A program made the position numbers and the translations under genes. From Rhodospirillaceae bacterium (GTDB taxonomy: Bacteria; Pseudomonadota; Alphaproteobacteria; GCA-2731375), in contig JABJKS010000063.1 of assembly GCA_018660265.1 (NCBI GenBank), positions 1-44,268 on the forward strand: 44,268 nucleotides of DNA, read 5' to 3'. This document shows, one piece after another, positions 17,140-24,702 of this stretch. Positions within the stretch are counted from its first letter, which is position 1. Every line of letters starts with the position of its first letter. The notes beneath the pieces were generated by a model. It was not told the origin of the DNA. It made no database searches and was given only the letters and a program-made list of their open reading frames with translations.

Positions 17140-17205
17140 TACCTAGGTGCGGTAGATACGAATTTGCCGGCACTACCAGGGTGGGATTGCAGCGTCTCGG
17201 CCAAA

Positions 17206-17312
17206 GAAAAAGGGGTCAGCCTTGTTCAGGCTAACCCCTCATCTACTCACCGGAGTGAAACTTTGGTGGAGCCAGGCGGAATCGAACCGCCGACCTCTTG
17301 AATGCCATTCAA
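17206..17312. repeat. Left copy of 107-bp direct repeat (probable attL), with tRNA-Ala 3' fragment
   Basis: Identical to 24569-24675 except for one base (C at 17217, A at 24580). It holds the 3' part of tRNA-Ala on the minus strand from the anticodon arm to CCA (17264-17312), a 24-bp spacer and the tRNA terminator (17207-17239). The match ends inside the anticodon stem. The fragment has no D arm or 5' acceptor strand and cannot form a tRNA. Confidence 0.9.
17207..17239 (-). terminator. tRNA-Ala intrinsic terminator, left (displaced) copy
   Basis: On the minus strand AGGGGTTAGCCT and AGGCTGACCCCT form a 12-bp stem with one G-U pair and a five-base loop, followed by five T residues. It is the counterpart of 24570-24602. 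Confidence 0.75.
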
Positions 17313-17334
17313 CGAATAACACCTGCGCCAACTA

Positions 17335-17710
17335 TTGTCACATGACGCGAAGCTACCGAAAACAGCCGATCACGACGACTTGTTCAAAGCTCGTCTCGAT
17401 CAGATCATCAACATGAAACACGAGCTCGTCGCCTTGGCTGACAAGATCGATTGGGCCTGGCTGGATGAGCAGATTGCGCCTTATTTTCCGATGAAGGACG
17501 CCCTGGCGAGCCGGTACGGTTCATGCTTGGCATGTTCATTCTGAAGCACACCTATGGCCTGTCCGACGAGCAGGTCTGGGACCGCTGGGTGCATGATCCC
17601 TATTTCCAATATTTTACCGGCGAGGAATTCTTCCAGCATGAACTACCCCATGAACGCTCCGGTATGAGTCACTGGCGCAATCGCATCGGCGAGACCCTGG
17701 ACATTCCTAC
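17335..17710 (+). mobile_element. IS5-type transposase remnant (5' part, frameshifted)
   Basis: Two frames together give the N-terminal part of an IS5 family transposase. The first frame (17335-17544) has FKARLDQIINMKHELVALADKIDWAWLDEQIAPYF. The second frame continues with PVRFMLGMFILKHTYGLSDEQVWDRW, then the family-typical YFQYFTGEEFFQHELPHERSGMSHWRNRIG. A frameshift lies near 17495-17520. Coding for the rest of the transposase, including the DDE catalytic core, is missing. Similarity stops near 17705, where CqsA-like sequence begins in the same frame. The remnant starts about 20 bp after the left repeat. I see no intact terminal inverted repeats. Confidence 0.8.
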
Positions 17711-18938
17711 GCCAGGGTCGCCAAGCGGGCTGCGATTAAGCGCTGAACTATCGGGCAACGACTATCTCGACCTTGGCGGGCATTCGGCCATCACCGAGGC
17801 GAAAGTCGCGGTCATGCAGGGCGGCGGTGATGATGTCTATATGTCGGCAGCTTTCCTGACCGACGGCACAATGCAGCGTGCCGTGGAACGAAAGATGGCG
17901 GCCTTCCTTGGGACCGAGGACGCGGTGCTGTGTCAATCAGGCTGGTGCGCGAATTTGGGTCTGATGCAAGCGATTTCGGACCAGGAAACCCAGGTTTATG
18001 TTGATGCCGGCGTCCATGCCGCGATTTGGGATGGGGCCCGCAGCGCTGGCGCACAAATACGCCCCTTCCGCCACAACAGACCGGAAAGCCTGGAAAGAAA
18101 GATTCGGAACCACGGCGTCGGCATTGTCGTCGTCTCGGCCGTCTATGGCGTCGATGGCACAATATGTCCCCTGGCCCAGATCGCCGATATTGCCGAACGG
18201 CATGGCTGTGAAATTGTTGTCGACGAGACCCATTCCATCGGTGTCTACGGTCGTCAGGGTCAGGGTTTGGTTTCTGACCTGGGCCTCCAGGATAAAATTA
18301 CGTATCGGACTTTCAGCCTCTCCAAGGCCATGGTGACCCGGGCCGGCATGGTCACGGGGCCGGCCAGGATTATGGATTTTTTCCGTTTTGAATCCCGCCC
18401 GGCAATTTTCAGTTCGGCGGTTCTGCCGCATGAGGTCGCCGGTCTTGGCGCGGCCTTGAATGTCATCCAGGAGGAAGACTGGCGTCGGGAACGTTTGCGC
18501 CACAATACAAGTCTGTTGCGCATCCGGTTGGCAGATCTGGGGTTCGATGTGGCGGTCAGCGGTTCGCAAATTATTGCCCTTGTCGCCGGTGTGGAAGATG
18601 TGGCGATAGCATTTCGCGATGCCCTGGAACGTCACCACATATTCGGCACTTTGATCAGCGCACCGGCAACCACGCGGAATGGCGCCCTGGTTCGCCTTTC
18701 GGTCAATTCGGGGCTGGTAGAGGAGGATTTGCGGCGCATCGCATGGGCCTGTACCTGCGTTCGTGATGAAATACCCATAAGCCGTTGGCCCTTAACCCTG
18801 CGACGGGGCGTCCCCGCGATTGTTGGCCGTGACGCTGCAGATCTACCGATTGTGCCGGATGATGAAACCGAAACCGACGCCGTTACTGAGGCGGCAACTG
18901 CAACACCGCCCAGCGAAGAAAAACGGCGGGCAAGCTAA
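17523..18938 (+). CDS. CqsA-like alpha-oxoamine synthase, N-terminus replaced by transposase sequence
   Basis: The frame codes 471 residues. About the first 60 are IS5 transposase sequence. From about residue 70 it is a PLP-dependent alpha-oxoamine synthase very like CqsA, which joins an acyl-CoA to an amino-acid derivative to make the CAI-1 precursor. Visible features are GNDYL (N79), LCQSGWCANLGLMQAI, the PLP-stacking His (H165 in VHAAIWDGA), VDETHSIG (D234, H237) and the Schiff-base Lys K268 in SLSKAM. One family Asp in the VVVD segment is Ser here (S205). The tail after about residue 435 is acidic and disordered. The native N-terminal arm is missing, so activity is uncertain; an inner ATG at 17667 could also serve. 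Its stop overlaps the next ATG by one base. Confidence 0.8.
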   Translation: MLGMFILKHTYGLSDEQVWDRWVHDPYFQYFTGEEFFQHELPHERSGMSHWRNRIGETLDIPTPGSPSGLRLSAELSGNDYLDLGGHSAITEAKVAVMQGGGDDVYMSAAFLTDGTMQRAVERKMAAFLGTEDAVLCQSGWCANLGLMQAISDQETQVYVDAGVHAAIWDGARSAGAQIRPFRHNRPESLERKIRNHGVGIVVVSAVYGVDGTICPLAQIADIAERHGCEIVVDETHSIGVYGRQGQGLVSDLGLQDKITYRTFSLSKAMVTRAGMVTGPARIMDFFRFESRPAIFSSAVLPHEVAGLGAALNVIQEEDWRRERLRHNTSLLRIRLADLGFDVAVSGSQIIALVAGVEDVAIAFRDALERHHIFGTLISAPATTRNGALVRLSVNSGLVEEDLRRIAWACTCVRDEIPISRWPLTLRRGVPAIVGRDAADLPIVPDDETETDAVTEAATATPPSEEKRRAS

Positions 18939-21900
18939 TGACGTTCAAACAAATGGCGCTTAGCCCATCAATCCAACGCTATGGCGAATTTCTACTTCGT
19001 CACCGCATATTGGTTGTCGTCCTCTCCGTGGTGATATGCCTCGCCATCAGCTCCGGCGCGCTGCATTTGCAGACCACGCCTGACAATCGCGTCTTCTTTG
19101 GATCGAGCAACCCCGACCTGAAAGCGTTCGAAACATTGGAAGCGGCTTATCGGGAAGGTAACGATGCATTGATCGCCCTGGCACCAACAAGGGGCGATGT
19201 TTTTACGGTTGAAACCTTGGCAACGGTTCGTGAATTGACCGAGGCGCTGTGGGCCGCACCTTACGTTACGCGCGTAGATTCAATCGCGAACTTTCAGCAT
19301 TCACAAGTCAGTGGTGATGAGCTGATTATCGACAATTTGATACCCCTGGATCTGGCGCTTACGGAACCAGCCATTGCGGACATCCGCACGGTTGCTTTGA
19401 CGGAGCCGGCCTTGGGTGGATTACTTATTTCCCGGGACGGCCACGTCACGGGCATCGCGGTCAATTTTCGCCTGCCGGAAAAATCACCGGAGGCGATCCG
19501 CGAGATTGTTGCCCATCTACGCGAGCTGGAAAAGAATATTGAAGCCCGGCATCTCAACATCAACATTTATATGACCGGCAACATCATGTTGATGTCGGCC
19601 TTTGACGAAGCCAGCCTGGACGACCTATCCACCCTGATCCCTGCCATGTTTGTCGCCATCGTGGTGGTCATGGTTTTATTGGTGCGCTCCTTCGCGGGGA
19701 TGGCTGCGGTCATGCTGTTGGCCTCCTTATCCTCCATGACAGCTATGGGCGTTGCCGGTTGGTTCGGCGTTGTAATCAATGCAGGGTCTTCGTCCGCCCC
19801 GCTGATCATCATGACCATGGCGTTGGCCTATGGCGTTCATTTGGTGACGAAGTTTCTTGCCGATTTCGGCTCCGGCTGGACCAAGCGGGAAGCCATCATT
19901 AATTCAGTTGAATTCAACCTGTCACCTGTTTCCTTGACCTCCGTGACGTCCGCCATCGGCTTCCTGTCCATGAATGGCAGTGATGCGCCGCCCTTTCATG
20001 ATTTGGGCACCATCGTCGCGGTCGGGGTGACCACGGCCTTCATTTTGTCCTTTACCTTTGTGCCGGCTTTCCTGGGCATTATGCGTATAGCAAAGCCGCG
20101 TAGGCGGGTCTTTGGCCAACGCCTTACCATCTCCTTGGGCAGCTTCGTGGTCAGTAATCGGCGCTGGGTTTTCTGGACCATGTCCGCCCTGATCGTACTG
20201 TTGGCGACGGGCATTTCACGCATCGAACTTAATGACGACTGGGTGGGCTATTTTGACAAGCGATACGAATTCCGCCACGACACCGAGTTTATTCTGGAAA
20301 ATCTGACCGGTATTGATCTATTGGAATACTCAGTCGCTGCCAAGGGTGAACAAGGCATTTACGAGCCGTCTTATCTGAAAATGCTGGACCAGTTCACCAC
20401 ATGGCTGCGCCAACAGCCCGAAGTCGTGAATGTACAATCACTCTCCGATGTTATGAAGCGCCTGAACCGGGATCTGAACGGCGGTGTGGAGACGGCCTAT
20501 AAACTGCCGCAAGAGCGGGAGCTGGCAGCACAATATCTGCTGTTGTACGAAATGTCCCTGCCCCGCGGACTTGATCTGAACGACCGGGTCAAGATTGATC
20601 GATCGGGCAGTCGCGTCAGCGTTATGTTGCGGCGGGACGGCGCGAACCTACCCTCGAAAGATCTGCGGCCATTGGCCATGCGTATCGATACCTGGCTGGC
20701 CCGCAATGGTGATACGGCCCAGGGCGCCAAGGGCAGCAGCATATCCTTAATGTTCGCCTATCTTTCCGAACGCAATATTTCGGCGATGTTGGTCAGCACC
20801 GCCATTGCGCTGCTGTTAATCTCGGCCATTCTGGTTTTGGCCCTGCGCAGCATTAAGATTGGTATCGCTTCATTGGTACCCAACTTTGTCCCGGCAATCA
20901 TGGGCTTTGGCCTGTGGGGATACTTGCAAGGTGAGGTGGGTGTTGCGGTTTCCGTGGTGGCGGCGATGACCTTCGGCATCGTGGTAGATGACACCATTCA
21001 TTTCCTGTCGAAATATCTACAAGGCCGCAGGGAACTGGGCAAAGGCCCGGAAGAGGCCATTCTGTATTCCTTCCGCTCTGTCGGAACGGCGTTGCTGGTA
21101 ACGACCATGGTGCTTGTGGCAGGCTTTCTTGTGCTTGCCACCTCCGGCTTTAAGGTCTCCAGTAGCCTTGGCCTGCTGACGGCGATTGTTCTGGCGCTGG
21201 CGCTGGTCGCCGACTTTTTGTTCTTGCCCAGCCTGCTGTTACAGTTTGACAGGGTCGCCAAGGATGTCGCCGGGGACTTGGATGTTTTGGCCGATGCCAC
21301 CCATTCCATTGAACTGCCGGGGCTGACCCAACGGGTGCTGAAATATCTTGACCGCATTCGGGACGGCCATCCCCTGCGTGGCAAACCGCCGGGCGAAGGG
21401 GCGATTGAACTATGGAGTAATGACTATCTCTCCATTGCCGGGCATCGCAGTATTGTAAACGCACAATCGGATCTATTGCGCGGCAATCGGGAGAAGCCGT
21501 TCATGTCCGCCGCCCTGCTGGCCAACAACCCCCAACAGCGGAGCGTCGAGACAAAGCTGGCGGCCTTCCTAGGTGTGGAAGACGCGGTGCTGTGCCAATC
21601 AGGCTGGTGCGCCAACATCGACCTTTTACAGACTATCGCTGACGAGAGCACACCAATTTACCTCGACATCTATGTCCATGCCTCTCTATGGGAGGGCGCG
21701 CGGATGTCAAAAGCCCCGATCCATCCGTTTCGCCACAACCAGCCCGACAGCCTGGCTGCGAAGGCAAAGCGCCATGGCCCCGGCATTGTTGTCGTGGATG
21801 CCGTCTACAGCGCCAACGGCAGTGTCTGCCCCATGCTGGAGATCGTCGAGGTAGCCGAGCAATATGGCTGCCTGCTGGTGGTTGATGAAAGCCATTCGGT

Positions 21901-22513
21901 CGGCACTTATGGTGAGTATGGCGAGGGATTGGTCGCCACCTTGGGACTGACCGACCGGGTTCATTACCGTACTTTGAGCCTCTCCAAAGCTTTTGCGACC
22001 CGGGCCGGCCTAGTGGCCGGGCCCTCACGGGTCATGGACTTCTTTCGTCATGAAGCACGCTCCATGCTGTTTAGTTCTGCCATTCTGCCCTACGAAATCG
22101 CCGGCCTGCAGGCCACTTTGGAGGTGATCCAGACCGAGGGTTGGCGTCGTGAAAAACTGTGGCAGCGAACGGTGTACTTGCGCCGGCGGCTGACCGAGCT
22201 TGGCTATAATGTTGATGAGAGCGACAGTCAGGTTGTTGCCCTGGAAGCAGGTCCGGAATATCGCAGCATGCAGTTGCGTGACGCCCTTGAAAGTGCCGGC
22301 ATATTTGGCGCCGTCTTCTGCGCGCCTGCAACGCCGCAAAATCGCTCGCTGATCCGCTTGTCCATAAATGCGGCACTCACTGATGCCCAGGTCGAGCGGA
22401 TCATTCGCGTTTGTGCCGATGTTCGTGATGCCGTCGAACTGGAAACCTGGCCGTCCAGCATGCGCCGCCGCAAGCGGCACAAACCAGATCGCGACGAGGT
22501 ATTTGCGACTTGA
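18938..22513 (+). CDS. Fusion of MMPL/RND exporter with CqsA-like alpha-oxoamine synthase
   Basis: The 1191-residue protein has two parts. Residues 1 to about 780 form an MMPL/RND lipid-type exporter: helix 1 near 25-45, a periplasmic loop, five helices to about 385, helix 7 near 410-430, a second loop, and five more helices. The second half has the relay motif GIVVDDTIHFLSKY (D684, D685). The matching place in the first half reads MALAYGVHLV, without the usual Asp. Residues about 800-1180 are a complete CqsA-like PLP synthase with SNDYL (828-829 Asn-Asp), FMSAALL, QSGWCANIDLLQTI, H914 in VHASLWEGAR, D954, VDESHSVG (D983, H986) and K1017 in SLSKAF. The synthase would face the cytoplasm. No frameshift joins the parts; they share one frame. 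Likely role: making and exporting a hydrophobic aminoketone or hydroxyketone signal or lipid (inference). Confidence 0.85.
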   Translation: MTFKQMALSPSIQRYGEFLLRHRILVVVLSVVICLAISSGALHLQTTPDNRVFFGSSNPDLKAFETLEAAYREGNDALIALAPTRGDVFTVETLATVRELTEALWAAPYVTRVDSIANFQHSQVSGDELIIDNLIPLDLALTEPAIADIRTVALTEPALGGLLISRDGHVTGIAVNFRLPEKSPEAIREIVAHLRELEKNIEARHLNINIYMTGNIMLMSAFDEASLDDLSTLIPAMFVAIVVVMVLLVRSFAGMAAVMLLASLSSMTAMGVAGWFGVVINAGSSSAPLIIMTMALAYGVHLVTKFLADFGSGWTKREAIINSVEFNLSPVSLTSVTSAIGFLSMNGSDAPPFHDLGTIVAVGVTTAFILSFTFVPAFLGIMRIAKPRRRVFGQRLTISLGSFVVSNRRWVFWTMSALIVLLATGISRIELNDDWVGYFDKRYEFRHDTEFILENLTGIDLLEYSVAAKGEQGIYEPSYLKMLDQFTTWLRQQPEVVNVQSLSDVMKRLNRDLNGGVETAYKLPQERELAAQYLLLYEMSLPRGLDLNDRVKIDRSGSRVSVMLRRDGANLPSKDLRPLAMRIDTWLARNGDTAQGAKGSSISLMFAYLSERNISAMLVSTAIALLLISAILVLALRSIKIGIASLVPNFVPAIMGFGLWGYLQGEVGVAVSVVAAMTFGIVVDDTIHFLSKYLQGRRELGKGPEEAILYSFRSVGTALLVTTMVLVAGFLVLATSGFKVSSSLGLLTAIVLALALVADFLFLPSLLLQFDRVAKDVAGDLDVLADATHSIELPGLTQRVLKYLDRIRDGHPLRGKPPGEGAIELWSNDYLSIAGHRSIVNAQSDLLRGNREKPFMSAALLANNPQQRSVETKLAAFLGVEDAVLCQSGWCANIDLLQTIADESTPIYLDIYVHASLWEGARMSKAPIHPFRHNQPDSLAAKAKRHGPGIVVVDAVYSANGSVCPMLEIVEVAEQYGCLLVVDESHSVGTYGEYGEGLVATLGLTDRVHYRTLSLSKAFATRAGLVAGPSRVMDFFRHEARSMLFSSAILPYEIAGLQATLEVIQTEGWRREKLWQRTVYLRRRLTELGYNVDESDSQVVALEAGPEYRSMQLRDALESAGIFGAVFCAPATPQNRSLIRLSINAALTDAQVERIIRVCADVRDAVELETWPSSMRRRKRHKPDRDEVFAT

Positions 22514-24477: not shown

Positions 24478-24568
24478 ATCCCGCTATATCCCGTCAAATC
24501 CCGCTGCCGTGGCGACTTAATGGTGACTTAATGGTGACTTGAATGGTGACTTGAATGGTGACTTGAAT

Positions 24569-24569
<1 letters not shown>
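24478..24569. repeat. Two adjacent short tandem arrays touching the right island repeat
   Basis: First comes a 10-bp unit of type ATCCCGYYNN repeated three times (24478-24507). Then comes GACTT(G)AATGGT repeated about five times (24514-24569), as two 11-bp units, two 12-bp units and a partial unit. The array ends exactly where the 107-bp right repeat begins. Such clusters near a tRNA attachment site can be binding sites for an integrase or excisionase arm domain; that role is inference. Confidence 0.65.

Positions 24570-24702
<133 letters not shown>

Follow-up and report, generated by a model that had tools for sequence, protein, structure and literature searches.

The exit of long-chain ketone signals from the cell is an unsettled question, and it is raised by one gene in a 44,268-nucleotide stretch of DNA from a Rhodospirillaceae bacterium (positions 1-44,268 of contig JABJKS010000063.1, assembly GCA_018660265.1; hereafter referred to as the window), in which a membrane transporter of the MMPL/RND class is joined in frame to an enzyme of the CqsA/LqsA class of autoinducer synthases. 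An earlier note on this DNA had proposed that the gene links a signal synthase of the CqsA/LqsA type with export, and among the explanations considered here this reading was the best supported by sequence comparison. According to the available passages of two papers, CqsA enzymes use acyl-CoA together with S-adenosylmethionine or 2-aminobutyrate to form amino compounds, which are turned into CAI-1 (PMC3376566, PMC3285556). For LAI-1, the available passages of a 2023 paper state that the secretion route is not known, and report that outer-membrane vesicles release the compound, other routes being left open (PMC10692735).

The gene is a single open reading frame (ORF; 18938-22513) that starts with ATG at 18938, runs unbroken to the stop at 22513 and codes for 1191 amino acids. 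An MMPL/RND transporter at approximately residues 1-780 is followed, after a linker only about 20-30 residues long, by a complete CqsA/LqsA-family synthase at approximately residues 800-1175. The Pfam model MMPL (PF03176) matched the protein in two stretches, the best being residues 59-391 with 106.7 bits against a gathering score of 20.5, and the Pfam model Aminotran_1_2 matched residues 823-1157; together with the NCBIfam match given below, these matches within one ORF bear out the exporter of about 780 residues and the synthase in one frame that had been described in the earlier note. The four residues named there, H914, D983, H986 and K1017, were found at these positions, are invariant in all seven fused proteins aligned, and align with CqsA (3hqt) in a profile of 11 synthases. 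In the transporter half, the motif VVDDTIH (residues 682-688) is also invariant in the seven fused proteins. This half has the MMPL domain in common with HAE3, HpnN and other MMPL/RND transporters, for which a lipid-type cargo is expected, and scored below the cut-off levels of both the HAE3 subfamily model TIGR00921 (182.8 bits against 351.9) and the HpnN model (105.3 bits against 751.85).

The family of the synthase half was assigned by curated profiles and by phylogeny. NF005526, the curated NCBIfam equivalog model of the alpha-hydroxyketone-type autoinducer synthase with a cut-off level of 428 bits, matched residues 809-1173 of the fused protein of the window with 498.6 bits, and the scores of all five further fused proteins scanned (L083 to L087) were also above the cut-off (501.7-530.7 bits). 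By curated hidden Markov model, the synthases of the CqsA/CqsS system of Vibrio and the LqsA/LqsS system of Legionella belong to the same family, and the best PDB matches of the fused protein were entries of the CAI-1 autoinducer synthase (CqsA), covering residues 801-1162. In a tree of 55 synthases, the CqsA/LqsA family was split from the rows of HemA, Kbl and serine palmitoyltransferase (SPT) with support of 100/100. Other identities within the superfamily were rejected: Kbl (glycine C-acetyltransferase) with 210.5 bits against a cut-off of 460 and HemA (5-aminolevulinate synthase) with 175.2 against 338.55, both separate in the tree; SPT with 212.2 against 500, 208.6 against 640 and 168.9 against 670 bits, forming a separate clade; and BioF with 244.4 bits against 426.45, by score only since the tree had no confirmed BioF row. 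The profile comparison proposed in the earlier note therefore placed the enzyme above the level of the autoinducer synthase model and below those of the four others, and the grouping with BioF or Kbl that would have spoken against its reading was not found. By every test of family membership applied, the synthase half belongs to the CqsA/LqsA family, and family and active-site residues together point to a putative alpha-hydroxyketone or alpha-aminoketone as the product.

An assembly or frame artefact has in its favour that the window comes from a draft genome of 121 contigs. The profile of 11 synthases was searched against genome contigs and the best 80 of 150 relatives were kept, giving 77 distinct loci, a sample that may not include less frequent or more remote fusions. 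A total of six loci (L082 to L087) gave an MMPL match, and at all six the transporter is fused to the synthase; the count rests on tblastn, because at several G+C-rich loci the synthase escaped the picking of the longest ORF. The arrangement by which the earlier note would have recognized an artefact, two separate genes in related genomes, was rejected on this count. In a whole-genome search of 96 genomes of relatives, with up to seven candidates scored per genome, a match across both halves was present among the matches listed in the window's own genome, G003 (87%) and G005 (86%); L082 and L083 are contigs of the latter two, the Rhodospirillaceae metagenome-assembled genomes (MAGs) SI072_bin164 and SI072_bin90. 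Overall identity to the fused protein of the window was 59% for L084, 49% for L085 and 48% for both L086 and L087, and thus the search in other genomes that had been suggested yielded six further assemblies, making seven with that of the window.

The fused transporters form one clade with support of 100/100 in a tree of seven fused and nine unfused transporters (the L045 row in corrected frame, and the partial rows L042 and L043 excluded), and two independent fusions are not favoured by this single clade. The ratio of nonsynonymous to synonymous substitution (dN/dS; Nei-Gojobori) of the window against L082 or against L083 was 0.055-0.066 in the transporter half and 0.065-0.071 in the synthase half, at synonymous distances (dS) of 1.36-1.50, where synonymous sites are near saturation. 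The recurrence in six other assemblies down to 48% identity, the single transporter clade and the low dN/dS of both halves altogether leave an artefact a negligible probability. As to frequency, the synthase family was found at E 1e-95 or better in six of 15 genomes of the order, eight of 385 of the class and 16 of 398 of the phylum, in overlapping samples that each include the window's genome and, for class and phylum, with up to four candidates scored per genome. Among the family matches listed from these samples, an open frame of more than 1000 residues was present only in G000, G003 and G005. On plasmids, none of 72,556 records carried 80% of the fusion in one place, 626 of them having any match.

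The gene setting, which the earlier note did not mention, includes a second synthase immediately upstream of the fused gene of the window and a gene cluster in the relatives. L082 and L083 share one gene order: a sensor kinase of the CqsS type, a protein of 434 residues (hereafter P434), a LolA-like protein, a second histidine kinase, a free synthase and, last, the fused gene. This core is found again in L084, where the CqsS-type sensor is on the opposite strand, and in L086 the order is free synthase, fusion, LolA-like protein, P434 and a hybrid sensor. The free second synthase stands beside the fusion at five of the six loci outside the window, and matches to the LolA-like protein and P434 adjoin the fusion at all six, Pfam LolA_like being confirmed for L084 to L087 and for L034, which is the same contig as L082. 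At the junction of free synthase and fused gene, the starts as picked give an overlap of 1 base in the window, of 4 bases in both L082 and L086 and of 25 bases in L085, and a gap of 36 bases in L084; L083 is left aside because its start is ambiguous. In the tree of 55 synthases, one clade (99/97) unites all seven fused and six partner synthases, within which each free partner falls with fused copies from its own lineage. This mixing fits duplication or gene conversion within the clusters, more complex histories being possible.

P434 matched no Pfam or NCBIfam model. In its predicted structure (mean predicted local distance difference test, pLDDT, 65.5), an N-terminal helix is followed by 18 strands. 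Foldseek listed 50 matches, of which 48 have titles naming porins, AlgE or further outer-membrane proteins, while the titles of the other two name artificial metalloproteins; the TM-scores of 0.38-0.57 support the class of fold only. P434 is predicted to be an outer-membrane beta-barrel, with matches of the porin type.

The clusters of the relatives also encode a kinase with a membrane sensor that is homologous to kinases beside Vibrio synthases, as in the CqsA/CqsS system. The gene of this sensor is unbroken at five of the six fused loci outside the window, the L085 match being apparently split over two frames. Compared alone, the membrane sensor of the L082 kinase is 31% identical to a Vibrio europaeus kinase over 178 amino acids (E 2e-25, a single comparison), and that of L086 is 30% identical to a V. 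penaeicida kinase (E 2e-20). The V. europaeus kinase adjoins an NF005526 synthase (565.2 bits) and is named by no NCBIfam model at E 1e-85, so that the label "CqsS-type" rests on position and domains. This homology strengthens the signal-synthase reading, with the ketone as the putative ligand. The phospho-acceptor histidine is kept in 10 of 16 CqsS-type kinases aligned and lost in six (Table 1), and five of these six are near a second kinase of the type next to the fusion, the sixth (L088) being on a 5.4-kb contig. The second kinases kept the histidine in 11 of 11 aligned, and at the five loci phosphorylation is probably carried out by the second kinase. The sensors of L086 and L087 carry HisKA, HATPase, REC and Hpt domains.

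Sensor kinases are likewise found next to unfused relatives of the synthase. Synthase relatives were present in MAGs labelled Chlorobiaceae and Chlorobium (L094 and L105), and that of L094 adjoins a CqsS-type-sensor kinase with intact histidine. The sensors bear on a further explanation, that the product is a secondary metabolite or an antimicrobial ketone and the kinases only regulate the cluster. Alpha-oxoamine synthases do occur in natural-product clusters, and the copy in the window retains both enzyme and transporter, with no sensor found in that genome (see below); against this, no other biosynthetic gene was recognized among the operon genes scanned, the sensor is of the CqsS type, and sensor kinases also accompany the unfused synthases. 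A metabolite of this kind is considered quite improbable.

Table 1. Positions of the fused gene, its neighbours in the window and the histidine-less sensors of other loci (the latter in the numbering of the locus named)
Feature	Position	Strand	Remarks
Fused gene, MMPL transporter and CqsA/LqsA-family synthase	18938..22513	+	1191 aa
Transporter half, residues 1-790	18938..21307	+	MMPL PF03176; HAE3 TIGR00921 nearest NCBIfam transporter model, under cut-off
Synthase half, residues 791-1191	21308..22510	+	H914, D983, H986, K1017 present
Partner synthase, same family	17733..18938	+	NF005526 439.3 bits; N-terminal part of intact relatives missing; stop overlaps fused ATG by one base
IS5-type transposase remnant	17312..17732	+	Frameshifted, truncated; frame runs into partner synthase (ORF 17523-18938; DUF772 residues 1-59)
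110-base repeat with 3' part of tRNA-Ala	17203..17312		98% identical copy at 24566-24675
tRNA-Ala (ggc)	24627..24702	-	With repeat 17203-17312 brackets fused gene, stretch of ~7.4 kb
CqsS-type sensor without phospho-acceptor histidine	L082:1128-2531		R
CqsS-type sensor without phospho-acceptor histidine	L083:1176-2579		N
CqsS-type sensor without phospho-acceptor histidine	L084:10019-11500		R
CqsS-type sensor without phospho-acceptor histidine	L088:1595-2968		Q
CqsS-type sensor without phospho-acceptor histidine	L095:4302-5789		K
CqsS-type sensor without phospho-acceptor histidine	L116:11245-12609		K

The explanation that we regard as probable is a self-exporting autoinducer synthase for alpha-hydroxyketone or alpha-aminoketone signalling. 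The C-termini of MMPL proteins are expected in the cytoplasm, where acyl-CoA is, and the C-terminal pyridoxal phosphate (PLP) enzyme, expected to be cytoplasmic, would condense fatty acyl-CoA with an amino-acid-derived substrate into a hydrophobic amino- or hydroxyketone, as family and residues suggest. In the simplest reading this ketone would be passed directly to the joined MMPL transporter, carried by the LolA-like periplasmic protein and released by the outer-membrane beta-barrel, the parts of this line being those seen in the relatives. The CqsS-type membrane sensor of the same cluster would read the signal, and the second kinase would probably perform the phosphorylation where that sensor has no histidine. 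In the organism of the window, the fused gene may still make the signal and export it with other partners, or may be an early relic. Enzymes of the CqsA/LqsA family form dimers, and mixed dimers of free and fused synthase are therefore possible. A bolder form of this proposal, about which we are more doubtful than confident, would see here the first quorum-sensing synthase built into its own exporter, with a dedicated line of three proteins taking a hydrophobic ketone signal through both membranes, a split receptor of histidine-less CqsS-type sensor and live kinase, and a partner synthase that may enter mixed dimers.

To our knowledge, the CqsA and LqsA synthases described so far are free enzymes; the synthase of the present loci differs from the CqsA/CqsS and LqsA/LqsS systems in that it forms one protein with a pump and, at most loci, has a second synthase at its side. 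A synthase-MMPL fusion, or its union with a CqsS-type sensor, was not listed by keyword search of 5.39 million open PMC papers, a body of text that leaves most subscription papers and bioRxiv as such outside, and the statement in the earlier note that its author knew of no described signalling system of this architecture agrees with this search. The nearest analogue of the exporter is AmeABCD of Castellaniella defragrans, which, according to the available passages of the source, combines an HAE3 pump, a LolA-superfamily protein and an outer-membrane protein and raises tolerance to apolar monoterpenes (PMC6394551). As far as these passages go, AmeABCD resembles the loci of the relatives in its inner-membrane HAE3-type RND pump, periplasmic LolA-superfamily protein and outer-membrane protein, and differs in that no enzyme fusion or signalling genes are described, that its outer-membrane protein is of DUF1302 whereas P434 has no Pfam family, and that it has a further periplasmic protein, AmeC, for which the comparison included no counterpart search (PMC6394551). 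By analogy, the exporter of the relatives could be a counterpart of AmeABCD-type apolar efflux, each transport step being conjectural. If the proposal is true, this would be the first dedicated active export route for the ketone signal class within the open literature searched, and release, besides synthesis, could be under selection. The cluster, by tying the synthase to pump, carrier and barrel, makes the exit of the signal testable in Escherichia coli, and the histidine-less sensor beside a live kinase offers the testable idea of a two-protein receptor.

Several observations weigh against the self-exporting synthase. The structure predicted for the fused protein is of poor quality (mean pLDDT 57) and silent on domain contacts, the model of P434 is of medium confidence with loose fold matches, and MAGs are among the seven fusion-bearing genomes. 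L085, arranged like L086, has a sensor match that is apparently split across two frames; in L087 the free synthase was not seen in the fetched stretch; and no response regulator was identified, the sensors of L086 and L087 carrying REC and Hpt domains of their own. In the window's genome, the search with the CqsS-type sensor gave kinase-core matches only (best E 2e-9, none at E 1e-10), and P434 gave no match, both searches finding G003 and G005 as positive controls; the LolA-like protein also gave no match, in a search without positive control. With sensor, LolA-like protein and barrel not found, no complete circuit is seen in that genome. Finally, the LolA-like protein and P434 are also present beside unfused MMPL relatives at six of ten loci, some with a flank of only 1.5 kb (not counting L022 and L023, whose matches are fragmentary, or L042, a piece at a contig edge), and the exporter, existing in this form without the synthase, could serve other cargo.

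These last loci show that the exporter set can stand apart from the fusion, than which it is probably older. In other genomes of the class, L012, L013, L015, L043, L044 and L045 carry MMPL, LolA-like protein and P434 barrel with no synthase adjoining. Such loci also bear on a lipid explanation, in which a structural or signalling lipid, sphingoid-like or another long-chain aminoketone, is made for the outer membrane, the MMPL, LolA-like and barrel proteins form a lipid line, and the sensor monitors an envelope lipid. MMPL and LolA-like proteins often serve lipids, and this service, the exporter set without synthase and the superfamily shared with serine palmitoyltransferase are all in line with such a product. 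The SPT models, however, scored far below their cut-off levels, the SPT sequences form a clade of their own, and no sphingolipid gene was present among the few neighbours scanned (in the window and L034); the lipid product is thus regarded as improbable.

The window's own copy of the system differs from those of the relatives in its surroundings. In ORF 17523-18938, the first 59 residues are a piece of an IS5-type transposase and homology to intact partner synthases begins at about residue 71; the partner synthase has lost its N-terminus to the IS5 fragment. The matches of the second kinase in the window's genome all start at residue 146 or later (at least 146), the best being 50% over residues 225-463. 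Since the CqsS-type sensor, P434 and the LolA-like protein were not found, the front of the operon is missing in the window, as far as a draft of 97% completeness shows, and the copy looks like a remnant of a system that, to judge from the genome sequence, is incomplete. A decaying relic without present function is an explanation of the window's locus that is compatible with the self-exporting synthase as the original state. The truncation by the IS5 fragment, the three components not found and the junction in a sister genome described next are in its favour, while the frame of 1191 codons is intact and dN/dS of both halves against L082 and L083 is approximately 0.06-0.07, values in which a recent loss would not yet show; on balance the relic is considered rather unlikely.

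In the sister genome G008 (contig 97; L042:2-1411), the N-terminal part of P434 is joined in frame to the transporter, whose sequence sets in at about residue 94 as judged by eye, and the contig ends before the synthase. This junction is apparently a separate loss of the operon front. In G005, an N-terminally short synthase of 282 amino acids lies beside a kinase (L046:9048-9896, the same site as L118), which suggests decay of another signalling locus in the genus.

The 110-base repeats of the window, which are 98% identical and contain the 3' part of tRNA-Ala together with the flank downstream of it, bracket the fused gene much as attachment sites bracket an integrated island. Among the part of the ORFs searched between them, none was recognized as an integrase, and comparison of the flanks gave no answer as to an earlier site of the locus; for the RND pump upstream, the best match in G005 is on a different contig from the fusion. 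Other fusions within the superfamily were observed at L121:8699-11068, L124:8612-11098 and L148:8453-11047, where N-terminal GNAT matches, two of them also FemAB-like acyltransferase matches, are joined to the PLP enzyme.

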